From NCBI GenBank assembly GCA_003116975.1, contig BGKB01000025.1:434001-498000 (forward strand): a stretch of 64,000 nucleotides of DNA. The letters are read 5' to 3'. This stretch comes from Aurantiochytrium sp. KH105 (lineage: Eukaryota; Sar; Bigyra; Thraustochytrida; Thraustochytriidae). The notes under the pieces were generated by a model that saw nothing but the letters and a program-made list of their open reading frames with translations, did no database searches and was not told where the DNA came from. The translations under genes and the position numbers were made by a program. Shown here in pieces: positions 1,994 to 15,225 of the stretch. The number at the start of each line of letters is the position of its first letter. The stretch's first letter is position 1.

Positions 1994-4900
1994 ATGCCAG
2001 GCAAAAGGAGGGTTCATCCCGAGCCCGGCGCGCTCGAAAGCGAGCTCTCCCTCGATGCCGACGAGGACAATGCAAATGCAAACACAACGGCGTGGACATC
2101 TATAGCCGGCCTCGACGCGCCGGGAACAGGTGGCGGATACTACGGTACGGGCGGAACACCGAGGCAAGATCGAGGTTTTGAAGAGGGCCAGGGAGGCCTT
2201 ACTATTGACGATCAAGCGTCCCAGGGCAGCGACGCCGGCATCGAGCTCTTTGCCACAAACGCAGCGACCGAGCGTGCTCTCGAAGTCGACTTCCTCGATC
2301 TTGACGACGATGATTCTGACGCTCGTGGTGATCGTGGTGGAAGACGGCGTCCAGACACGCAAGAAGTACCACAATTTGCGAGCGCGCTAAACGCAAGCAT
2401 GAAACAGAAACAATTGCCCAGTACTCTCGCTGGCAATGCTAAAAACGCTGCAGCTTCGGAAGACGACGAGGAGGATGAGGAAGATGAGGAAGCTGACCTT
2501 CTCGGTATTGACGATGGTGCTGAGGAACTTCTCGGCATCGCCCAACTCCCCGGAGCTGGGCCTTCCGCATTCATGAATCCAGAAATCGAAAAAAAGGTCG
2601 AGCAGCTCGCTCAAGCCGTCAAGATCTATAAAGAAAAGAACCGCAAGCTGCGCGAAAAGCACGACAAGGCTGCCAAAGACGCCAAAATGCTCCGCGAGGC
2701 ACTCGAAAAGCTCGAAGAGGAAAAGGAAGAGGCCGAACTGCGCGCCGAGCGTGAGTTACGCCTCATACAGTTCAAAAACCTTGGCGCTGCCGCGGGGGGC
2801 GGCGGCGCCGCGGGTCGTCATCTAGCCACTGACCTTGAAGCCCAGCGCAAACGAGAAGAGGCTCGCCGCCAAATGTACGCCGCGACAAACGATCAGGGCG
2901 ATGACTACGATGTCATTCTCGGCATGCAAGACACAAGGCGCGCCGGAGGTCTTTTTGCCAGTCTATACAAGCTCATGGCGCGCCTCCAGCGGAAATATAC
3001 GCCTCTGCAGCGAGACGTGCGCCGCGCAGAGGCGCGATTTGGTAGTTCTGTTGCCTCGTACTTTTACTTTTTCAGGTGGATGATTGCAAATTACATTGCT
3101 CTTGCGCTCATCTGCCTGATTTTTCTCATTCGGCATATTACTGCGCTTTTGTGGTACCAGAACCTGAGCCAGGACGACCGCAATCGGTTTTACAACTCTG
3201 CGGGAGAGCCGAGGCTCGCCTTTGATTGGTCCTCGAGCGATTGGTCTGCATTATCCTCTTTCTTGCCAAAGTTCCTCATGATTTCCAGCTTCAATCCAGG
3301 GGATTCGGCGACGCAGTTCTTCGCAGACAATCTACATGCCGGAACGCCCATCCGCGACGCAAGCGGTGCTCAAGTGAGTGCCACGTCCTACAACCCGGGT
3401 GCGGAACTTGGCGAACGCATGGACTACATCAGTCTTCTCATCTTTTGCAATCTTGTCCTTCTCGGATCTTCCATCAACAAGTGGATCCGCGAGGATCGCC
3501 GCGCCAAGGCCTTTGGCCTCTTTGAGGACCTCGACAGTCAGTCGCGCTTCGCGCAGAGCGCTCTCAATGCCTGGGATCATAGCATCAGCGACCCTCGCGA
3601 GGTCGAGGATCTCAAACACACGCTTCTTGACCAATACTTTCTCACCACGCACGAACTCAATACTGCCAACAAGAAAAAGGGCCGCAGTTTTAAGGAGCGT
3701 CTCACGCTTCGTGCGCGCCGCATCACCGCCAATTTCATCTACATTTCCGTTCAAGGATCCAGTGCCGCGGCAATCATCTACCTGACCGCAACTTCAGCGC
3801 AAATGAGCCAAAATATCCTGCAAATCATCAGCGATAACGCCTCCCTGCAGTGGCTGCTCCCCGTCGTTACGCTCGTATCCGGGTCCATTGTTCCCCTCGC
3901 CGTCAGCGTCATCAACGCCCTACTGCCAGCTGTGGTCACCTTCGTCACCGCCTTTGAAAAGTGGGACGATGGCGGCTTTCACACAAAGTACATGCTCTCC
4001 CGCCTCTTTGTGGCCAAGATCCTCAACGCCTTCATTCAGGTCTTTTCCTTTTTGCAGCTTCTCGATCCGTACATGCTACGAGGGGACCCTATCATAAGTC
4101 GCGACTTTTCTCTCACCGCACGCACCAATACAGAAAAACGTCTTGTTTCCGTCGGATCCACCTATGGGGCCGCCGGCACTGTGCCACGTGGTCTCGACGA
4201 GTGCCGGGCCGACCTTTACGGTGCAGGCATTTTCCAGCTCGTAATTACCGAATTCGTCGTCTCCAAGACCGCCTTTGCGATCGTGCCTGCCGCCAAGTAC
4301 TTCATCGCCAAGCTGCGCAAGCGCCCTTTCGAGCGCAACGAGTTCCACGTCGCCAAGCACATGGTCGACCTCCTTTTCTTTCAGCAGCTCTGCTTCATGT
4401 CCTTTCCTTTCTTCCCTTTTGGCACCATTTTTATCGCTGGCATGATGTTTCTCGGCTTCAAGCTGCAGCTACGCGTTCTTAATGGTTTCATGCAGAAACC
4501 AAAGAAACCTTGGAGCGCACGCGACGCCGCCAACTTTTTCATCAAGTTCTTCTTCCTCACTTTCGTCCTCAGCTTTGCCGTACTTTGGTTCATGCTCGCT
4601 TCAGAGACGCTTCCCAAGGCCTGTTCGCTTCAGGAACACCTTGTGCAGGCTTCTTTTGATAGCAATCCGCTTGAACAGTGCTTCAGCGAAAATCCCACGG
4701 CTGCTGACAGTGAGCCGACTTGCTTCATGAGCGACCGTACGGCCTCTGAAATTGCGCTTGGTGAAGCACGGGCTCCGGGACTCGAAGAGCTGCGCTTCTG
4801 GGAAGAATACTTTGTTGCCAGCGTCCCGGACGGCACCTTTGCAGACGATGCGATCATCGACACAGAGGCGCGACTGCGTGCGTTGCTCGGGTACCCGAAT

Positions 4901-5224
4901 CAGACGACTGTAAGCTTTTCCTCTCTCGTTGTCTGCTCGCTCAGTTGTGGACCTTTTGTCTACAACATGAACTATTACTCCTCGCTCGACACATACTTGA
5001 GCAACTACATAAAGACGTTATACACCCTCGCAACGCAGAGCCCTTTGTTCGTTTGGGCCATTGCCATCGTCTTCTTACTTCGGTACCTTTTCACCAAGAA
5101 CACAATCGGTGTCCTCTTTGAGCTCCAGGAGGAGAAGGAGATTTCGCTTCGAAACCTCGTGGCAAATCTCGAGTCAAAGATTAAAAAGCTCACGGCCAAA
5201 ATCGAAAAGATGAAGGTTGAATAA
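1994..5224 (+). CDS. TMC-family transmembrane channel-like protein
   Basis: This is a 1076-residue polytopic membrane protein of the TMC family (anoctamin/TMC/OSCA superfamily); animal TMC1/2 form the mechanotransduction channel pore. An in-frame TAA directly precedes the ATG, so the start is firm. Residues 1-190 are acidic and disordered, 195-260 form a charged coiled coil, and the first membrane helix is near 357-380. Further helices occur around 480, 590-660, 670-700, 750, 790-850 and 860-880. The TMC signature region is recognisable at roughly 795-865 (the FFPFGTIFIAGMMFLGFKLQ segment, then KPKKPWSARDAANFF), and the short CGPF motif follows near 975. A last helix near 1020-1040 is followed by a basic coiled coil at the C-terminus. 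The canonical CWET motif is not clearly visible. It is about 300 residues longer than human TMC1, mainly in its N-terminal tail and loops. Ion selectivity and gating are unknown. Confidence 0.82.
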   Translation: MPGKRRVHPEPGALESELSLDADEDNANANTTAWTSIAGLDAPGTGGGYYGTGGTPRQDRGFEEGQGGLTIDDQASQGSDAGIELFATNAATERALEVDFLDLDDDDSDARGDRGGRRRPDTQEVPQFASALNASMKQKQLPSTLAGNAKNAAASEDDEEDEEDEEADLLGIDDGAEELLGIAQLPGAGPSAFMNPEIEKKVEQLAQAVKIYKEKNRKLREKHDKAAKDAKMLREALEKLEEEKEEAELRAERELRLIQFKNLGAAAGGGGAAGRHLATDLEAQRKREEARRQMYAATNDQGDDYDVILGMQDTRRAGGLFASLYKLMARLQRKYTPLQRDVRRAEARFGSSVASYFYFFRWMIANYIALALICLIFLIRHITALLWYQNLSQDDRNRFYNSAGEPRLAFDWSSSDWSALSSFLPKFLMISSFNPGDSATQFFADNLHAGTPIRDASGAQVSATSYNPGAELGERMDYISLLIFCNLVLLGSSINKWIREDRRAKAFGLFEDLDSQSRFAQSALNAWDHSISDPREVEDLKHTLLDQYFLTTHELNTANKKKGRSFKERLTLRARRITANFIYISVQGSSAAAIIYLTATSAQMSQNILQIISDNASLQWLLPVVTLVSGSIVPLAVSVINALLPAVVTFVTAFEKWDDGGFHTKYMLSRLFVAKILNAFIQVFSFLQLLDPYMLRGDPIISRDFSLTARTNTEKRLVSVGSTYGAAGTVPRGLDECRADLYGAGIFQLVITEFVVSKTAFAIVPAAKYFIAKLRKRPFERNEFHVAKHMVDLLFFQQLCFMSFPFFPFGTIFIAGMMFLGFKLQLRVLNGFMQKPKKPWSARDAANFFIKFFFLTFVLSFAVLWFMLASETLPKACSLQEHLVQASFDSNPLEQCFSENPTAADSEPTCFMSDRTASEIALGEARAPGLEELRFWEEYFVASVPDGTFADDAIIDTEARLRALLGYPNQTTVSFSSLVVCSLSCGPFVYNMNYYSSLDTYLSNYIKTLYTLATQSPLFVWAIAIVFLLRYLFTKNTIGVLFELQEEKEISLRNLVANLESKIKKLTAKIEKMKVE

Positions 5225-5582: not shown

Positions 5583-8500
5583 TTATTCAAGAGCACGCTT
5601 TCGCGCGACAACGAGAAGCCTTCGGAGAGCCGGATGCAAGGGCGCGACGCCCTCTGGATCAAGCGTTCGAAGCAAACGCGCCTTGCACTCACGAGAGCCC
5701 GCCAGCGCCGCCCGACAAAGGTGCGCAAAGGCATCGTGGTGGAAGGAAACGCCGCCTGGCCACGCCGTCTCGCGCACAAGACGCTCGAGAGCAGGAAAGT
5801 CGAGCACTTCCTGGACTCCGGCCTCTTGTACAACAGCGTCATGAGTGTGTTGCTGCGCCTCCATCACATCTCGCAAAAGATTCAGAGGCTCGGCGTAGAT
5901 GTTGTCCGGCTCCACCATAAAGACGCGTTCCTTGAGGAGCCCAAGGTCGCGCGGACTTGCCGCCAGCGCGCGGGGGCCAGGGTGCAACTCGCCACATTGC
6001 GCCCACGCAGCGGCGCGTACTTCGACCCAAGCCGACCCGTCCAACGTCTCAAACATGTGCCGCAGCAAGGCCCGTACCACGAGGGGCTCGCACTGTGGAA
6101 GTGCACGGAGCGAAGGGACCTGACGCACCGCCATGGCGAGCGCCCCGCGCCGGAGATTGTCCACTTCGTCCTGCGCAAGTGCGAGCAGGGCCCGCCACGC
6201 GAACGCAAGCGACGGAGACGAGACCTCCAAAACGCCAGACGTCCCGAGCGCCTCGAGAGCAGCGCTGCGCAGAAGCGTGCTTTGCACAGGCTTGGCGCAG
6301 TCGTGAATGATCGCAGCAAGGGCAACCTGTACCTCTCTTTGCGAGGCAGCGTACCGGCCCAAGGCGCGCACCACTGCGCCCTGGGCGCCCTCGCCAACGC
6401 ATACTTGCGAGTGAAACATGGTCAAAAGCCGCTGTGCGACTGTGGGCGATCGCTGGCCCTCGCTGGAGGCCAGCAAGTCCATTCGTGCGATTAGTTCTGG
6501 GTAGAAGAACACGCCCGCTTCAGTCAATGTCACATGCTCAGCTGCTTCGAGGACCTTTTGCGCCAAAGGTGAAGATCCCGTCGCCACATCTTTGGCAGCC
6601 CGCAGCGCCGCAAGACGCCTGCGGCAGTCCTCGCTGCGCAGATTCTCCACTAAAAAGTTCGACGCCAACAGCCGGCACGAAAGCGCAACACTGTCCTCCG
6701 TCTGCCAGGGACTGTCTCCGGCCCGCTTGGCGAGATCCAAGATCGGCGCAGAGAGCGCCGCGCGCGGTCGTAGCAATGAAAAGTTCCAAAGGGCGTCCCA
6801 GGTGGCCGTGTACACCATCGAAGAGGGCCCGCACGATTCCAGGACGGCGCGCAGCGCATTGCTCAGAGGCGTCTCAAGGGCTCCAATCGCCTCGCTTGCG
6901 CGCGGACCCGTGTGCAGCTTACGTTCACGAATTGTCACCAACAACTGGGTAAGTTGTAATAAGAGGCCATGCGCGTGATTGTGGCCAAGACGTGGCGGCG
7001 ACGAGGCACAGCTATCGCTCAGCATGGCAAGAATCTCTCGAATTGTGTCGAGAAGTCGGAATTCCGGACAAAGACTGGCCAGCGCTCGCGAGGCCATCGA
7101 GCGCGCCATCACGTGCGGTTGAGAAGCGCACGCAAGGAGGAGCGGTAAAAAGGGAAGGACGTCCTTATTTCCCGCCTCCCACGCCTCCTTGTGCTCTCCG
7201 ACAAAGGCCTCTTCCTCCCCTTCGGGAGACACAAAGGCTGGTCGCAATCGGGACAGAATCAAGAGCATGGGGTACAGACTGGGATCCATCGCGCCCATTT
7301 TGTTGTGCCCAAGACGCTGCTCGTTGACGATGCGTCGGAGATTCTCGAGCACCGCCAAAAAGACATCCCCATAACGCTGCATGAAAAAAGCAGAGTTCAC
7401 GAGCACGGCCCCCATCGTGCGGCTCACGCGCATGTTCTCCTGGCCAAAGGCTCGCTGGATCACACGGGCAAACACCATCATGGACGAGTTTCGCACTTGC
7501 CAATTGTCATTTCTAAAGCCACGCAACGACAGCAGCAAGAGCTGCGGAAGGTATTCTTGCAGCTCGTGCTGCAGCGAGCCGTCCTCGAAAAGCATCTTCA
7601 AGATATTCAGCCCGTGCACGCGAATGCGCATATCCTCAGCATTGCTTGCCAGCAGCATGAGACGGGTCACCATACGTTCCAGCAGCACGGTGCGTCCCGC
7701 GCGAGGCTCGGCGCACGCAAGAGCCAAAAACGCGCTTGCAAACCCGACGGACCGCCTCAAGTAAAAACCTTGAAGCCCGCCCTCGAGTCGATGCAGCAAA
7801 TAGTTGGTCCACTGCATTGGAAGCTTGGACAACGCCGGGCTTTTGCGCAGGCGAAGCAAGCGCGCTGCAATGCCTTGAAAAGAATTGCCGACCACGCGGA
7901 TTGCGCCCATGTGTCGCAAGCGAATCAGCAGCTGCAGCTGCACGGCGCCAATTGCTGCAACCCGAGGGGCAGCGAGCACAAAGGCGTCCGTCTCCAACTC
8001 AAGTGGACAGGTGCGCACAATCGTCTCCATACACATTGTCACCTCGCGAATGACGAGCCAGTCGCTGACAACCACGTTTTCGTTATTGTGAATTGGTCGA
8101 TCCATGAGAATGAGGTTGTCGTCGCCTCTCCTGCTCGACGACCCGCCTTCCTTGCTGGCTGCATTCATAGTAGTAGTGTTATCACCGCTGTTGTCTGCGT
8201 CGACGGCACCGTCGTCGTCGTCGGAGAGCTGTTCCATGTCCTCGTCCTCATCGTCCAAGTCGCTGCCATCATCTGCGTCTGTCTGCTTCTTGCACACGAC
8301 AGCGGCAGCGAGTTCACACGCCTTGTTGAGCACGTTGAGTGAATCCTCAGCCACTTGCACCCAGGCATCCGGATCACGGCGAAGCGTGGACTCGCTCACC
8401 TCCCAGCAGTTGCGAAAGGCTTGCAGGAGGCCAAAGCACGACTCGGCCCCAGGCTCGCGATACAGCTTGATGAGGTCGGCCAAGAAGGCGCGTGCCACAA

Positions 8501-11500
8501 GGTCCCGCGGGAGATTCTGGCCCACTGCTTCTGCTTCAAAGTTGTCGCTCGCTTGTTCTTGAAAGGGTTCCACAGGACCCTCGTCGGGGAACAAAAACAT
8601 GTTTGGTTCCATGCAGCGCTCCTTGAGCCGCTGGTCAGTGCCCGTGAGATAGTCGACCTGGAGTCCGGCCTCGCGCAGCTCGCGCGTTCCTGTGCACTCT
8701 ACAAATTTTGACGGCTCGCGCACGCCAACCACGACGCGCTTGACGCCAGCAGCGATGCAGCGAGAGGTACATGGACGATTGCCGGACAGACGCTTGCTAC
8801 AAGGCTCCATGGTCGTGTAGATTGTCGTACCTTTGGCTCCGCCCCGAGCAATATCATCCACGTCCTCGTCCTTTTCGTCAAAGCCGCCAATCTTCATAAA
8901 TGCCGTTTCTTCCGCGTGCGTGTTGCCCGGAAGCTCGCGGCTAAAACCGCGCGCCAAAATCTCCACGTCCGCCTCGCGCACGATAATGGACCCAACGTTG
9001 TACGCCTTCTCGGCACGCTCACACTTGAACGCCTCGGCGCAGGACAAGTGCATCCGAGCAACGTCCATGCGCGACTGGATGCCAGGATCCTCACGCGACG
9101 TTGGCTCGCCACGCAGACCCACCGCCCAGCCCTCGCCGAGGACATAACGCTCGTAAACAAGCTGCAAGAGGGTGCTCCCTCCTCGAGCATTACGGACCTT
9201 GAGACTTTTGGCGAGCAAAAGCGCCCACTTGACGAGCTTGTGCACTGCAGTCCACGTGTCGAGTCCAGGAAGAGGTGCAGGGACGCGTCGAAGCACTTGC
9301 AGAGCAAGCGTCCGCGGCTGCTCGTGCACGTCGCGCACGAGACTAAGAAGAGAAAAGGTGTGATCCTGATGTTCGAGGCGACAGATATCGGGCGAGGTCG
9401 AAAAGACTTCAAACATGATGGACAAGTGCGAAAGCACCATGCTCGATCGCTCGCGCGGCATGTCGGGATAAATTTGCTCGATCATGGTGCGCTTGAACCA
9501 TTTGAGAAAGTCAAGGACGGCGGCGCGATCCTTATCGGTCACATGCTCATCGTCGGCACGTCTGCTTTGAACAAGAGCGATGCTAATCCATTCGAAAAAC
9601 AGTTGCGAGCTGCGGCGCAACCCCTGCGCGCAGCTCTCCGAGACCGACTTGTGCACAGTGCAGCTATAGACAACCCTTGCAAGGCGGAGGACCTCGGCGC
9701 TTGGCATACGCTGTTTTTTGGTGGGGCAAAGCACAAGCTTGACAGCTCGCAGTTGGACAAGGTCATCAGCGTGCTCGAGTCCGTGCCGCACAGCTTCGGA
9801 AGGGATACGCACAACCTTTGTCGAAGCGAGAGCAGGTGACCCTGCCTTGGGCGAGCGCGGTGACCGGGGCGATTTGCCACTCGTGCTGTTGTCATCGAAG
9901 GCAGCAAATTCGACGCGAAGTCCCGCGCTCGAGAGTGCGCCCCAAAGCCGAAGCTGGTCCTCCAGCGCCGGCTTGCGCTTCTCCAGCGCCTCTTGGAGCG
10001 TAAGACAGGTAATGCCGCTGACGGAACTGAGCAGCTCGGGTACGATTCGAGTCGCGACCTGCTCCGCGGCGCTCGTATCGCCCTTTGTGATGGCATCCAG
10101 AAGCGCCTCAAGCCAGATGGGTCGTGCATCAAGACCCTCACGCTCCTCGAGATTGCTTGCCATGTCTCGAAATAGCTTGGTGCTCACCGTGAAGACCTGC
10201 CCGTGCTCCTCGAAGCAGCGCAATAGCGCTGGCATAATGTTTGGATCCACATCTAATAAGCCGCGCGCACCGTCGTGCTCGAGAAAGCGCCCAACAGCCA
10301 AGAGCGCGGCCCGGAGGTTGGTGGTCTGTGATCCTGGCTCGTGCAAAGTGACTTCTTGCAAGAGACGACGGAGAAGCGTCCCTCGCGCTGCGAGCGCGTC
10401 GTCGCGCTCGGCTACAAAAGGTTGAGGAATAGACGCTGGATCTGCAAAGGCGACTGCCTCGAGAACCTCGAGAGAGGCATTGAAGAGCGGTTCGAGGTAA
10501 TAGCGCGCTTTGCGAGATCCTTGACTCCAATTGTCCAGGACAAAGTCGAGAAGCGCAAGGCAGCACTTTTTGCCATGGCTCCGCCAGAGCAATAGGGCCG
10601 GCATTTCCAGGAGATGGAGTCCTTGCTTAAAAAGCTTGCACCATGCTTCAAGGCCCGTGAGACAGTACCCCTGCACTGTAGCATTAAAAACGTGTGCTTC
10701 AGAGATGGCCATGAGCTTGGCAAATATGCGCTCGGATACCGTTCCGGCATTGTCCTGAGCAGTCTCGTTTGTGTTTGTATCCGCTGCAAGCAAGAGAGAT
10801 CGCGGTACGCATGCAAGAAGGTTGCGAAGCAGCAGAGCAGCGGCAGGTTCGGTGCACGATGCAGCAAGCAGGGCAACGAGCGCGCGCGGATCGCCATTTT
10901 CACTAGCCTTGTCATCGAGAGAGTCGCTTGCGGCTGGTGCCGCGGCAGACGAGGGCATGGACGAGCTGTGGGCCTTGGCAGCGGATGACGCTGCGACATT
11001 CGGAGCGCTGCACGCAGTATCAGCACCAGCACCAGCACCAGCACCAGTCCCAGCGCCAGCGCTAGCGCCAGCCCCAGTGACAGCGTCTGTAGGCTTGCCG
11101 CCGACCTGAGAGCCCGAATGGACCTCGCACAGCTTGACAATGGCGCGACGGACCTCACCAGGGGCACAAAAGGTGAGATCAAGACGAACAATGGAAATGC
11201 CCGCAAACATTTCGATGCTCTTTGTTGCTGCGGCAACGTCAGAATCAGCAGCGGCATTGACCCAGGGAAAGAGCGACTCTTGTGCCATGCCACGAGCTTC
11301 CTCGCGGTCTGCAGGTCCCGTCGAGGCTATACGAGTACAGGCTCCTGGCGCCTGAAGGTACTCCATGAGCGCTTGTACTGGCACTTCAGCGTTTGCTAGA
11401 GCCACAGACGCGTCGAGTGCAGTGTCTGGGCCGGCAGCTAGTGCCGGTATGTTGAGGTCGCGCTGAAGCAGTCGAAGCGTGCGCAAAAGGAGACCTGGAT

Positions 11501-12092
11501 CGACACGATCGACGAGGATGTCGCGGCAAGCGCTGGATAGCACAAAGTTACGGATACCAAGTGCGACGTCAATCTTGTCCACGACACGCAAGGCTCGTGC
11601 GCAGAGCTCTGCGACACGAGCCTCGATACGCGCAGCGAGCACGGTCTCGAGGCTCGGGTGCTTGTCGAGACAAGCTTGGAGTACAGCAGACGCCGCCTGG
11701 CGCAGCTTGAGCGGAACCGGAGCACCGAGAATATGAGTGCATATGCTGATTAGGGCGGCATGGTCTTCGCAATGCATGGCTTCGCCTTGGCGTTGGCAGC
11801 TACATGGGGTCTCGGAATGCGCGGCAAGTGCGCACCATTTTCCGGTTTTCACGGCGCCCTTTGCGCTCGATAGTTTGGCCACGCGACCCAGCAAATGGTC
11901 GGCGTGCAAGAGAGCCTCCACGAGTCTGCGCGCGGCGGACGCGTTGCTGCATTTTGCCACCTGCTGCCAAAGCGCCTCGCGGCTGGGCGTTCTGGAGCCT
12001 CCGGGGCCGTCTTTCGCCGCATAGATGTCGCGACCGTGCGCCGGCACTGGCTGTCTGCCGCGCAGCACGAGTTTGCGGTTTCGCCTCACCAT
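5583..12092 (-). CDS. THADA: THADA/Trm732-like ARM-HEAT protein with an inserted DRAP/RibD-type deaminase domain
   Basis: A single uninterrupted frame of 2169 residues with an ATG start. The scaffold is THADA (yeast Trm732): helical repeats throughout, and the central conserved DUF2428 region at roughly 1380-1680, with the diagnostic FYLRRSVGFASAF, RVHGLNILK and NDNWQVRNSSMMVFARVIQR segments. THADA/Trm732 partners the FTSJ1/Trm7 methyltransferase for 2'-O-methylation of tRNA nucleotide 32. After the conserved YERYVLGEGW motif (about 980-989), residues about 1010-1150 form a deaminase closest by eye to fungal Rib2/DRAP deaminase: YNVGSIIVRE, GFSRELPGNTHAEE, TTMEPCSKRLSGNRPC. Putative zinc ligands are H1059, C1098 and C1108, and the catalytic Glu is E1061; all are present. 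THADA helices resume after about 1190. An acidic linker is at 1240-1270. Human THADA is 1953 residues, so the insertion plus linkers accounts for the extra length. It is probably cytosolic. The substrate of the deaminase is unknown; both a riboflavin-precursor role and an RNA role are open. Confidence 0.9.
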   Translation of the reverse strand: MVRRNRKLVLRGRQPVPAHGRDIYAAKDGPGGSRTPSREALWQQVAKCSNASAARRLVEALLHADHLLGRVAKLSSAKGAVKTGKWCALAAHSETPCSCQRQGEAMHCEDHAALISICTHILGAPVPLKLRQAASAVLQACLDKHPSLETVLAARIEARVAELCARALRVVDKIDVALGIRNFVLSSACRDILVDRVDPGLLLRTLRLLQRDLNIPALAAGPDTALDASVALANAEVPVQALMEYLQAPGACTRIASTGPADREEARGMAQESLFPWVNAAADSDVAAATKSIEMFAGISIVRLDLTFCAPGEVRRAIVKLCEVHSGSQVGGKPTDAVTGAGASAGAGTGAGAGAGADTACSAPNVAASSAAKAHSSSMPSSAAAPAASDSLDDKASENGDPRALVALLAASCTEPAAALLLRNLLACVPRSLLLAADTNTNETAQDNAGTVSERIFAKLMAISEAHVFNATVQGYCLTGLEAWCKLFKQGLHLLEMPALLLWRSHGKKCCLALLDFVLDNWSQGSRKARYYLEPLFNASLEVLEAVAFADPASIPQPFVAERDDALAARGTLLRRLLQEVTLHEPGSQTTNLRAALLAVGRFLEHDGARGLLDVDPNIMPALLRCFEEHGQVFTVSTKLFRDMASNLEEREGLDARPIWLEALLDAITKGDTSAAEQVATRIVPELLSSVSGITCLTLQEALEKRKPALEDQLRLWGALSSAGLRVEFAAFDDNSTSGKSPRSPRSPKAGSPALASTKVVRIPSEAVRHGLEHADDLVQLRAVKLVLCPTKKQRMPSAEVLRLARVVYSCTVHKSVSESCAQGLRRSSQLFFEWISIALVQSRRADDEHVTDKDRAAVLDFLKWFKRTMIEQIYPDMPRERSSMVLSHLSIMFEVFSTSPDICRLEHQDHTFSLLSLVRDVHEQPRTLALQVLRRVPAPLPGLDTWTAVHKLVKWALLLAKSLKVRNARGGSTLLQLVYERYVLGEGWAVGLRGEPTSREDPGIQSRMDVARMHLSCAEAFKCERAEKAYNVGSIIVREADVEILARGFSRELPGNTHAEETAFMKIGGFDEKDEDVDDIARGGAKGTTIYTTMEPCSKRLSGNRPCTSRCIAAGVKRVVVGVREPSKFVECTGTRELREAGLQVDYLTGTDQRLKERCMEPNMFLFPDEGPVEPFQEQASDNFEAEAVGQNLPRDLVARAFLADLIKLYREPGAESCFGLLQAFRNCWEVSESTLRRDPDAWVQVAEDSLNVLNKACELAAAVVCKKQTDADDGSDLDDEDEDMEQLSDDDDGAVDADNSGDNTTTMNAASKEGGSSSRRGDDNLILMDRPIHNNENVVVSDWLVIREVTMCMETIVRTCPLELETDAFVLAAPRVAAIGAVQLQLLIRLRHMGAIRVVGNSFQGIAARLLRLRKSPALSKLPMQWTNYLLHRLEGGLQGFYLRRSVGFASAFLALACAEPRAGRTVLLERMVTRLMLLASNAEDMRIRVHGLNILKMLFEDGSLQHELQEYLPQLLLLSLRGFRNDNWQVRNSSMMVFARVIQRAFGQENMRVSRTMGAVLVNSAFFMQRYGDVFLAVLENLRRIVNEQRLGHNKMGAMDPSLYPMLLILSRLRPAFVSPEGEEEAFVGEHKEAWEAGNKDVLPFLPLLLACASQPHVMARSMASRALASLCPEFRLLDTIREILAMLSDSCASSPPRLGHNHAHGLLLQLTQLLVTIRERKLHTGPRASEAIGALETPLSNALRAVLESCGPSSMVYTATWDALWNFSLLRPRAALSAPILDLAKRAGDSPWQTEDSVALSCRLLASNFLVENLRSEDCRRRLAALRAAKDVATGSSPLAQKVLEAAEHVTLTEAGVFFYPELIARMDLLASSEGQRSPTVAQRLLTMFHSQVCVGEGAQGAVVRALGRYAASQREVQVALAAIIHDCAKPVQSTLLRSAALEALGTSGVLEVSSPSLAFAWRALLALAQDEVDNLRRGALAMAVRQVPSLRALPQCEPLVVRALLRHMFETLDGSAWVEVRAAAWAQCGELHPGPRALAASPRDLGLLKERVFMVEPDNIYAEPLNLLRDVMEAQQHTHDAVVQEAGVQEVLDFPALERLVRETAWPGGVSFHHDAFAHLCRAALAGSRECKARLLRTLDPEGVAPLHPALRRLLVVARKRALE

Positions 12093-12852: not shown

Positions 12853-14634
12853 TTACGAGCAGCTATGCGGCCTTTCGCCTCCGTTGAGGAGCTTGTAGGA
12901 CGTCTTCGTGTCACGACGCGGGTTGACGAAGCTGCGCAAAAGCTTCCACGCTTTGATCTCGCGGTTGGTCTCCTCAATGGCAAATTGATGGACCTGGTTC
13001 GTGAAGTTTTGCACGCCAACGTTCTTGTGCAAATACGTCTGAATCTGAGAACAAATCTCCTTGTCAACGGCCGACTGGGCGTGCGGCTCGCACTCGTGGT
13101 TGTTACAGCGCGCACGAATGTGGTAGAGAGCGAGGGCGCGACCGCCGTGCGCAGAGTATTGAATGTACTCGTCCTTGCTGAGCTTCTCGAGATTGACATC
13201 GACATTGTGCTTGGACTTTTCGCGAATAATGTACGACTTGTCGCGAAAGGTAGTCCAGCCATAAAACAGGTTCGTGTAGGGCCACGCGGAGCGCTCAGCG
13301 TCCACGGCGCGCTTTCCCTCTTGCGAGGCGGTATAAGAGTAGCGAAAGAACACTTGAAGGACGGAGTTGACCTCCTCCTTCATTTCGAGGATAATGTAGC
13401 CGTGCTTTTGCGACTCGTAGCGGCCCTTGATGAGCAGGTAAAATCGGTTGAGACCAATCGAGCCCGTGCCGCTGCCTTCCTTGCGCGCGACGGCGACAAC
13501 CTTGTAGAACTTGCCGTCGTTGGGAAATTTGGCCAGCGCCGCGACACCGTGGTACAAATAGGCGTCGACGGACTCCTGAAACTCGGGGATGAGGCTCTCG
13601 TTGACGGGGTGGATTTTGTCGGTCTTGATGAAGCGGTCATTTTTGAGGTCGATGGACATTTTGTCTTCGAGGAAATGAAGTGTCTCCTCTTTCGATTCAC
13701 GGTCGCGTGACTTTTTGAAGAGGTCTTTGATAAGGGAAGCGTGGCCCTCGACGTAGCGGCCATGCTCAATAAAGCGCTCCGTGTTTGCAAACTCGCAGTT
13801 CGGGTGGTCGACAAGAGTGGAGACATAGGCCTCGACAAAGGCGCGCGCGGCGTTCGAGTGGTCCTCGTCTGCCCAAGCCCGAGCTACGGACCCAAGCGCA
13901 AATCCTGTGGCGCCGCGCTTGACGTCCCAGCTAAAGGGCGTCGTGAAGGACTGGTCAAAGTCGTTGACGCCCCAGACGAGATCGCCGTTGGCCTGGACCA
14001 TGACCCCAAAGTTCTCTGGGTGGCAGTCTCCGTTCGAGTACACGCGAGGCATGGTGAGTCGCTTCGCCGCGAATTGCGGGTCGGAGCACATCATGTTGTA
14101 ATCGAAGAAAGCGGCGGCGCCGCGGAAAAAGACAAAGGCGGTGTTGTCCGCGATCTTTTCGATCTTGGAGTTGACCGCCTCGAGGTTTTTACCGCCTTGG
14201 AGCGCGGCGGCGCAGTTTTCGATCTGAAAGGCCGCGCGCAGTCGCGGAAGGCCATGCTGGGAGCATTCCACGAGCGGCAGGTACTGGTTGGCGCACCACC
14301 CGGCGCAGAGGCTGTTGTTGCGGCTCGAGAGGGTGTGGTTGTGGTCTTCGTCCCCAGCCCCGTAGGCCTCGACTCCGTCGTAGAAATCAGTCGCGACGGC
14401 GTCCATGAGCGCGGCGTCGCTGGTGTTGCTGGGCATTGCCATCTCCATGTCCAAGGTCGCGCCGATCCCGAAGATGTCCGCTTCCGCGGGGCTGACGGTC
14501 ACGGTCTCCTCATGGCCGCGTCCGTTCCTGGCGACTACGACGCACAGGAAGACCGCCGCGGCGCCGGCGCCCGCTGCCCACGCGAGCGCGCGCGAGCGGC
14601 GCCGCGGGGGCGTCGGCCCCACGCGGGTGTACAT
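12853..14634 (-). CDS. Membrane-anchored DUF2252 family protein
   Basis: A 593-residue protein. The frame is open to 14775, but the only upstream initiation-like codon is TTG; the first ATG is at 14634. A basic cytosolic N-terminus with a proline/arginine stretch is followed by one hydrophobic helix (about residues 17-36), giving a type II membrane topology or an uncleaved signal. The rest is a DUF2252 domain: FVFFRGAAAFFDYNMM, then SNGDCHPENFGVMV, then GVNDFDQSF and a PFSWDVKRGATGFALGSVA segment. These resemble the GDxHxxNFG and NDFDxxxxxPxxWDxKR signatures of this family, which has a protein-kinase-like fold and no assigned reaction. Three Asn-x-Ser/Thr sites near residues 110-145 and several cysteines fit a luminal or extracellular C-terminal domain. 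The same start region faces the Sec14-GOLD gene. Function is unknown. Confidence 0.8.
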   Translation of the reverse strand: MYTRVGPTPPRRRSRALAWAAGAGAAAVFLCVVVARNGRGHEETVTVSPAEADIFGIGATLDMEMAMPSNTSDAALMDAVATDFYDGVEAYGAGDEDHNHTLSSRNNSLCAGWCANQYLPLVECSQHGLPRLRAAFQIENCAAALQGGKNLEAVNSKIEKIADNTAFVFFRGAAAFFDYNMMCSDPQFAAKRLTMPRVYSNGDCHPENFGVMVQANGDLVWGVNDFDQSFTTPFSWDVKRGATGFALGSVARAWADEDHSNAARAFVEAYVSTLVDHPNCEFANTERFIEHGRYVEGHASLIKDLFKKSRDRESKEETLHFLEDKMSIDLKNDRFIKTDKIHPVNESLIPEFQESVDAYLYHGVAALAKFPNDGKFYKVVAVARKEGSGTGSIGLNRFYLLIKGRYESQKHGYIILEMKEEVNSVLQVFFRYSYTASQEGKRAVDAERSAWPYTNLFYGWTTFRDKSYIIREKSKHNVDVNLEKLSKDEYIQYSAHGGRALALYHIRARCNNHECEPHAQSAVDKEICSQIQTYLHKNVGVQNFTNQVHQFAIEETNREIKAWKLLRSFVNPRRDTKTSYKLLNGGERPHSCS

Positions 14635-15225
14635 CTCCCCGCCGCTGCTGCTCGCTGCCGCTGCCGCTGCGCTGCTGCCGCTGCTCCCTCCCGCGAGCTC
14701 CAGCTTTCGGGCTTTGCTCGAGCGGCTTTGCTGCGACAGTGAGTGACTCAGATGGAGGCTCCCAAGGCGTCGCAAAGCGCAGGCAGCTCGCTCGCTAGCT
14801 TCAGATAGAGAGATGGCTCGCTCGCTAGCTCGCTAGCTGCAGCGGCAGCAGGTCTGCCTCGGCGGCACGGCCTCCACACAATCCGCTCTGGCGGCGGAGA
14901 AGCTCCGCGAGAAGGCCCGCGGCGGCCTGCGTTTATGCAGTAGTGTGTTTGTCGCTCCCCAGACTGTCAGCGAGCGAGCGGTGCGGTGGCATCGAGCGTG
15001 CAGGTGCCCCGAGGCTGCGCGTTGGTACAAGTTACAAGCAAGTTTGCCGCGGCCCGAGTCACTGTCACAGTCACGCGAGGCGACGACCGGCAGGCAGGCG
15101 TCGCTGGGCTGGCTGTCAGCGTCTGCGTGCCGCGCCGCGGCCATTGGTCTCCTCTCCTCGCAGGAGGTCGACAGCCGTCGCAGATGGCATGGCCTGACGC
15201 ACGCGGAGAGGGATGCGGACGAAGC

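Follow-up and report, generated by a model that had tools for sequence, protein, structure and literature searches.

We identified in a 64,000-nucleotide stretch of the genome of Aurantiochytrium sp. KH105 (contig BGKB01000025.1, positions 434,001 to 498,000; hereafter the window, with a GC content of 56%) a gene that combines in a single reading frame a THADA/Trm732 protein and a deaminase of the Rib2 family, the latter placed inside the former. The gene fusion is real and, to judge from its sequence, quite likely encodes a bifunctional protein consisting of a THADA part and a riboflavin deaminase, probably the cell's sole enzyme of this kind. A joining of Rib2 to the modification of tRNA nucleotide 32 was known already from yeast. 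The gene lies on the minus strand, with its Met codon at window position 12092, its last sense codon ending at 5586 and its stop codon at 5585-5583, in a frame that extends from stop to stop over 12383-5583. Its parts, numbered in window coordinates and in amino acids (aa) of the protein, are as follows.

5583..12092, minus strand: complete THADA/Trm732-Rib2 fusion gene, one uninterrupted frame of 2169 aa plus stop.
9126..12092, minus strand: N-terminal half (aa 1-989), presumed THADA repeats, from position and a sub-threshold PF25150 match.
9078..9125, minus strand: linker into the deaminase (aa 990-1005), boundary approximate, by difference between the flanking parts.
8583..9077, minus strand: Rib2/DRAP-type deaminase (about aa 1006-1170), from Pfam and PDB matches, residues and tree.
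8493..8582, minus strand: linker out of the deaminase (aa 1171-1200), boundary approximate, by difference.
7497..8348, minus strand: DUF2428 THADA core (aa 1249-1532), from Pfam.
6942..7493, minus strand: TPR_Trm732_C domain (aa 1534-1717), from Pfam.
5586..6941, minus strand: rest of the C-terminal part (aa 1718-2169), without a Pfam match that passes its cut-off.

The original prediction, made from the sequence letters, was that one frame holds a complete deaminase followed by DUF2428, and the domain order in Pfam confirmed it. The deaminase matched dCMP_cyt_deam_1 (aa 1012-1123, 50 bits) and, as its best-matching family, Inv-AAD (PF18785; aa 1034-1157, 102 bits); downstream are DUF2428 (aa 1249-1532, 146 bits, cut-off 27) and TPR_Trm732_C (aa 1534-1717, 82 bits, cut-off 27). 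Among solved structures, human THADA (8y2o) matched aa 1339-1726 with an E value of 6e-31 and Aspergillus oryzae Rib2 (7drz) matched aa 1040-1158 with an E value of 1e-13. The zinc-site residues H1059, E1061, C1098 and C1108 are at the positions previously given for them, and the deaminase does follow the YERYVLGEGW motif (aa 980-989), the insert being confined to the stretch between aa 989 and about aa 1176, with linkers of roughly 16 and 30 aa. Subtracting the deaminase of about 165 aa leaves 2004 aa, close in scale to the 1981 residues of the human THADA chain in 8y2o, of which 28 seemingly belong to a tag. The two plus-strand frames tested over the gene (397 and 375 aa) matched no Pfam family at E ≤0.01.

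The second haplotype of the genome carries the same fusion. The assembly comprises 76 Mb in 367 contigs, which suggests about 38 Mb per haplotype, and the matches of our family searches were mostly paired on different contigs, as two haplotypes would give (the exception, a PF00383 match on contig C28, has no twin). Contig C163 contains the fusion in one open frame of 2222 codons and is collinear with window positions 17854-2334 (about 15 kb) with which it aligns in two pieces, one 94.2% and the other 98.3% identical. An assembly join, raised with the original prediction as one finding that would help to overturn it, is therefore unlikely. Where codons of the two copies align, about 112 silent and 30 replacement changes separate them (ratio of replacement to silent differences per site, pN/pS, 0.087). 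In the deaminase part (aa 1001-1175) there are 11 silent and 2 replacement changes (pN/pS 0.055), and 12 of these 13 fall at third codon positions. One length difference, of six codons, falls in a Gly/Ala-rich stretch far upstream. The GC content of third codon positions (GC3), taken in 150-codon steps along the gene, ranges from 0.52 to 0.71 and is 0.70 in the deaminase. Together with the haplotype differences, GC3 thus indicates that the insert and both of its junctions evolve as coding sequence. With the same join in two haplotype contigs of 94-98% DNA identity, and with the frame unbroken and coding constraint evident at both junctions, it is extremely improbable that an artefact of assembly or annotation has merged two genes.

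A single open frame could nonetheless be one gene on paper only, if alternative splicing or processing released separate THADA and deaminase products. Splice-like signals are present at suitable places: two GTRAG donors (aa 1000 and 1024) and two in-frame YAG acceptors (aa 1187 and 1189), the use of which would remove about the whole deaminase. Yet at least four GTRAG...YAG pairs also arose in 232 of 1000 synonymous shuffles, so the observed count is not above chance, and pyrimidines make up 35% of the 20 bases that precede the two in-frame acceptors. We rejected the splicing out of the deaminase on the grounds that the candidate pairs are no more than chance would supply. Moreover, a separate deaminase would still depend on translation of this frame, whether it follows the N-terminal half or starts internally at Met1009 or Met1014. 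Separate products are, in our estimation, quite unlikely.

The inserted deaminase resembles Rib2 and not RibD. It has the zinc site of the superfamily, HxE and PCx8-9C (H1059, E1061, C1098 and C1108), and pocket residues like those of a riboflavin enzyme. The crystal structure paper of A. oryzae Rib2, which converts DARIPP to ARIPP, lists the zinc ligands and the DARIPP-binding residues and describes those that interact with the substrate as conserved across fungal Rib2 (PMC8256712). Eleven of the 12 testable A. oryzae residues are identical in the fusion deaminase: N59, H61, A62, E63, E100, C102, R105, L106, S107, C112 and E136, which correspond to N1057, H1059, A1060, E1061, E1096, C1098, R1101, L1102, S1103, C1108 and E1126, respectively. 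Within the DARIPP-binding set (Thr53, Asn59, Arg105, Leu106, Ser107 and Glu136) five of six are identical. For comparison with prokaryotes, we used 20 of the 46 loci that a scan of prokaryotic genome contigs had returned. Sixteen of these, all bacterial, are of RibD-like length, a class set by the 196-261 aa that follow the matched part and not by a reductase match; none has Arg105, Ser107 or Glu136, all 16 have Gly for Ser107 and Asp for Glu136, and the loop around these residues is one residue shorter. By contrast, Arg105 and Ser107 are common to three stand-alone deaminases, one from a Pacearchaeota metagenome-assembled genome (MAG) and two from Actinoplanes, and both Actinoplanes proteins also have Glu136; an Anaerococcus locus encodes a short protein without this loop. 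These three (L065 from the Pacearchaeota MAG, L066 and L082 from Actinoplanes; frames of 148-208 aa) may be prokaryotic Rib2-like enzymes in their own right. In a 25-row tree that omits the Anaerococcus protein and includes four further deaminases of the Aurantiochytrium genome, the fusion deaminase groups with A. oryzae Rib2 and the three stand-alone deaminases, apart from the RibDs (support 95/94). The deaminase part scores 62.8 bits with TIGR00326, far below the cut-off of 156, and the fusion protein has no match to PF01872 (RibD_C) at E ≤1. From the pocket residues and the tree, we rejected a RibD-type identity: the earlier description as a DRAP/RibD-type deaminase holds for the Rib2 (DRAP) kind and fails for the RibD type.

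The family name of the best Pfam match raises a different reading, in which the deaminase has turned into a tRNA editor that, mounted on the tRNA-holding cylinder of THADA, acts on C32 or on a different base close to the anticodon loop. THADA places tRNA nucleotide 32 at the methyltransferase site, C-to-U changes at position 32 are reported from trypanosomes and from Arabidopsis tRNA-Ser, in the latter by an enzyme given as unknown (PMC6382703), and Inv-AAD is an AID/APOBEC-like family. The trypanosome change is made by ADAT2/ADAT3, however (PMC6382703). The ribitol- and phosphate-binding residues for DARIPP are also kept, fungal Rib2 matches the same Pfam model better, and the genome yielded no other candidate for the riboflavin deaminase. 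Specifically, a 128-residue piece of A. oryzae Rib2 matches Inv-AAD at 149 bits, against 102 bits for the fusion protein; since A. oryzae Rib2 is a riboflavin enzyme, the label does not point to editing, and we rejected it as evidence for a nucleic-acid editor. Named for invertebrate AID/APOBEC deaminases, PF18785 also takes in ordinary Rib2, and its name may mislead annotation. Deamination near position 32, whether C-to-U or other, had been one of two proposals in the original prediction; with the residues for a ribitol-phosphate substrate kept, it is not supported, and we regard an editor as highly improbable.

Five other riboflavin enzymes are encoded elsewhere in the genome. Six-frame searches located GTP cyclohydrolase II (contigs C202/C207), DHBP synthase (C300/C42), lumazine synthase (C44/C108), riboflavin synthase (C53/C179) and a stand-alone RibD_C-family reductase (C135/C61, frames of 274 and 287 aa), the latter two frames being the sole RibD_C matches in the genome. 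Inv-AAD matched the two fusion haplotypes only, which were also the sole deaminase matches of the RibD model, a model that matches the separate reductase as well; tblastn with the deaminase domain added to these two one match of 13.7 bits (E 2). PF00383 gave 17 matches, including both fusion haplotypes. The Rib2/RibD signature was absent from the 13 that we inspected of the other 15, the two uninspected ones being the match on C28, which covers 50 profile positions, and that on C218, a twin of C8:575962; the latter has SAE where the zinc-binding His is expected. Five of the frames, one per haplotype pair, were compared with NCBIfam: the best models were TadA for three, cytidine deaminase for one and, for the remaining one, an anti-phage dCTP deaminase model together with ComEB, all below their cut-offs, and TIGR00326 was the best match of none of the five. 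We therefore rejected the other genome deaminases as the riboflavin enzyme, as 13 of 15 lack the signature on inspection. The search for a second DRAP deaminase that the original prediction had called for thus returned none, by profile searches with the Inv-AAD and RibD models, by tblastn or among the inspected PF00383 matches. Given that the genome encodes these five enzymes and that the searches turned up no second deaminase of the RibD/Rib2 type, the fused domain most likely serves the cell as its riboflavin deaminase. The fungal route, in which reduction comes first, likewise combines a separate reductase with a deaminase of the Rib2 type (PMC8256712), and the same order may apply here.

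Two further proteins came up in these genome searches. One of the TadA-like loci (L005, contig C95, twin C186) has two tandem deaminase domains in one frame, the second of which, with TSE for HxE and EPCLMS for PCxxC, looks inactive; that a single chain here resembles the ADAT2/ADAT3 pair is our guess. The GTP cyclohydrolase II gene (L034:1378-3177, minus strand, contig C202, twin C207) encodes a PAS domain (PF13426, 52 bits) ahead of the enzyme. Its string GRKCNFLQ is one that we take to be LOV-like, and the protein could join a flavin or light sensor to the first step of flavin synthesis.

The THADA part retains some of the contact residues of its human counterpart. Trm732/THADA serves the methylation of tRNA position 32 (PMC12145424, PMC6382703), and THADA binds the tRNA such that nucleotide 32 lies at the methyltransferase site (PMC12145424). 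We took the human contact residues from the same source and numbered the 8y2o chain with an offset of 28, which, of five tried, fits 15 of the 17 named residues; Arg1105 and His1106 do not fit, and another passage of the paper gives His1105 (PMC12145424). In the aligned range, five of eight FTSJ1 contacts are identical (human P1358, R1363, R1368, C1393 and N1401, equivalent to P1659, R1664, R1669, C1695 and N1705), one Phe is replaced by Tyr (F1321) and two are changed. Two of the four tRNA contacts are identical (Trp1054 is W1345, and residue 1105 is H1394); the tRNA-binding residues are reported as not highly conserved in shorter THADA homologues (PMC12145424). An acidic low-complexity stretch at about aa 1267-1335, within DUF2428, lies upstream of W1345, and human Glu973-Cys1042, likewise upstream of Trp1054, is described as not visible in the cryo-electron microscopy map (PMC12145424). 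Contig C74 carries an FTSJ1/Trm7-like gene for the partner (361 bits to 8y2o chain B). FTSJ1, THADA and WDR6 are described as widely conserved, except in several SAR or cryptophyte species (PMC12145424). Upstream of DUF2428, no sequence match between human THADA and the fusion protein would place the insert in human numbering. The N-terminal TPR_Trm732 repeat family PF25150 matched aa 765-898 when a 511-aa piece was searched (15.1 bits, cut-off 27, E 0.016) and was not listed at E ≤1 for the whole protein. The THADA repeats that had been predicted for the N-terminal half are thus weakly recognised, as opposed to the C-terminal THADA domains, which are well supported.

A folded domain can enter an array of helical repeats as a neutral insertion. 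The deaminase could on this account be a relic within THADA, catalytically spent or only structural, and the partial retention of the human THADA contacts could be read in the same way. This we consider very unlikely: the zinc site keeps its four residues, the substrate residues that could be compared are nearly all preserved, pN/pS in the deaminase is 0.055 between the haplotypes, and the genome searches gave no alternative enzyme for the step.

Several observations weigh against a bifunctional protein with the only riboflavin deaminase of the cell. On the THADA side, the N-terminal half is poorly recognised as such, human FTSJ1 contacts F1398 and Q1400 are changed, and so are the tRNA contacts at 1106 (R1106) and Glu1225. 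On the deaminase side, Thr53 is Ser1051, Phe26 of A. oryzae Rib2 falls outside the aligned range, and Glu51 of that paper's discussion (PMC8256712), perhaps a misprint for Glu63, is Gly both in the aligned Rib2 fragment and in the fusion. The residue comparison uses a single solved enzyme, with which the fusion deaminase shares 37% of 103 aligned columns. The tree is weak, with 4 of 22 inner branches well supported and an unsettled bootstrap, and its single Rib2 row (A. oryzae) is a long branch. Excision by an in-frame GTRAG...YAG pair would remove about aa 1000-1188. In the genome, the six-frame searches ignored introns and could have missed a deaminase broken by introns or hidden in a gap, and the PF00383 match on C28 is left unclassified. 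Lastly, the reductase scores 106 bits with the ribD_Cterm model and 85 bits with an archaeal reductase model, both below the cut-offs, and these scores do not settle the reaction order.

Having weighed these points, we favor a bifunctional THADA and riboflavin deaminase. The THADA part would pair with FTSJ1/Trm7 and direct the 2'-O-methylation of nucleotide 32 of the tRNA. From its place between the N-terminal half and DUF2428, the deaminase would act on 2,5-diamino-6-ribitylamino-pyrimidinone phosphate (DRAP/DARIPP). This deamination would be a middle step in the making of riboflavin by a route that reduces first, and both activities would reside in the same polypeptide. The proposal that one deaminase family has been joined to two unrelated partners acting on tRNA position 32 gains support, the partners being Pus8 in yeast Rib2 and THADA here. 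Flavin synthesis may also be coupled to tRNA modification, the second of the two original proposals. A broader model, in which eukaryotes functionally couple their supply of riboflavin to the modification of tRNA position 32, is doubtful, if worth stating: the DRAP deaminase would have been joined independently to Pus8 (in yeasts) and to THADA because flux through the flavin pathway and anticodon-loop modification are co-regulated or share a control on translation, and THADA would have been kept in this lineage for carrying an essential vitamin enzyme. With two cases, noticed after the fact, the convergence of Rib2 and tRNA-32 modification may be due to chance. If true, the fusion would be a second, structurally unrelated tie between a riboflavin enzyme family and the modification of the same tRNA nucleotide, and the Rib2-Pus8 fusion of yeast would shift from a curiosity to a possible pattern. 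The probable riboflavin deaminase of this lineage also sits in a gene easily annotated solely as a helper of tRNA methylation, and the Inv-AAD name, which ordinary Rib2 enzymes share, calls for caution.

The fusion gene is flanked in the window by two genes of other kinds. Adjoining it at 12853-14829 on the minus strand is a DUF2252 protein (197 bits), of a family that Pfam gives as conserved in bacteria. On the other side, at 1994-5221 on the plus strand, is a TMC-like membrane protein with a PF07810 match of 29.5 bits, just above the cut-off of 25, and a sub-threshold anoctamin match.

Titles and the starts of abstracts in the open-licence literature that we surveyed describe no THADA-deaminase fusion; in one of the papers the single mention of 'deaminase' refers to a reagent used in an assay, and the word is absent from the main text of a paper on oomycete fusions (PMC2705460). 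Scans of a viral contig collection gave no match. At least some stramenopiles are annotated with RibD (K11752), as reported for two sea-ice diatoms (PMC13149256). Bacterial RibD/RibG belongs to the same superfamily as the fusion deaminase but has deaminase and reductase in one chain and deaminates before reduction (PMC8256712); Aurantiochytrium encodes the reductase in a gene of its own, and the pocket residues of the fusion deaminase resemble those of Rib2. A. oryzae Rib2 (PDB 7dry/7drz) shares family, zinc site and 11 of 12 testable residues with the fusion deaminase, and differs in being, as described, a 222-residue enzyme without another domain (PMC8256712). It is reported as a monomer (PMC8256712), which makes insertion into another protein plausible. 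Human THADA and yeast Trm732 have in common with the fusion DUF2428, TPR_Trm732_C and part of the FTSJ1 and tRNA contacts, and an FTSJ1-like gene is in the genome; the fusion departs from them in its inserted metabolic enzyme and its weakly recognised N-terminal half. A parallel in architecture is yeast Rib2, in which the DRAP deaminase family is joined to the pseudouridine synthase domain Pus8 that acts on tRNA position 32 (PMC8256712 for Rib2); none of the 14 PF00849 matches in the Aurantiochytrium genome is near a PF00383 match. Like the fusion, Saccharomyces cerevisiae Rib2/Pus8 carries a Rib2-family DRAP deaminase and a tRNA-32 modification domain in one chain, but there the pseudouridine synthase is N-terminal and the deaminase C-terminal, whereas here the partner is THADA and the deaminase is internal.

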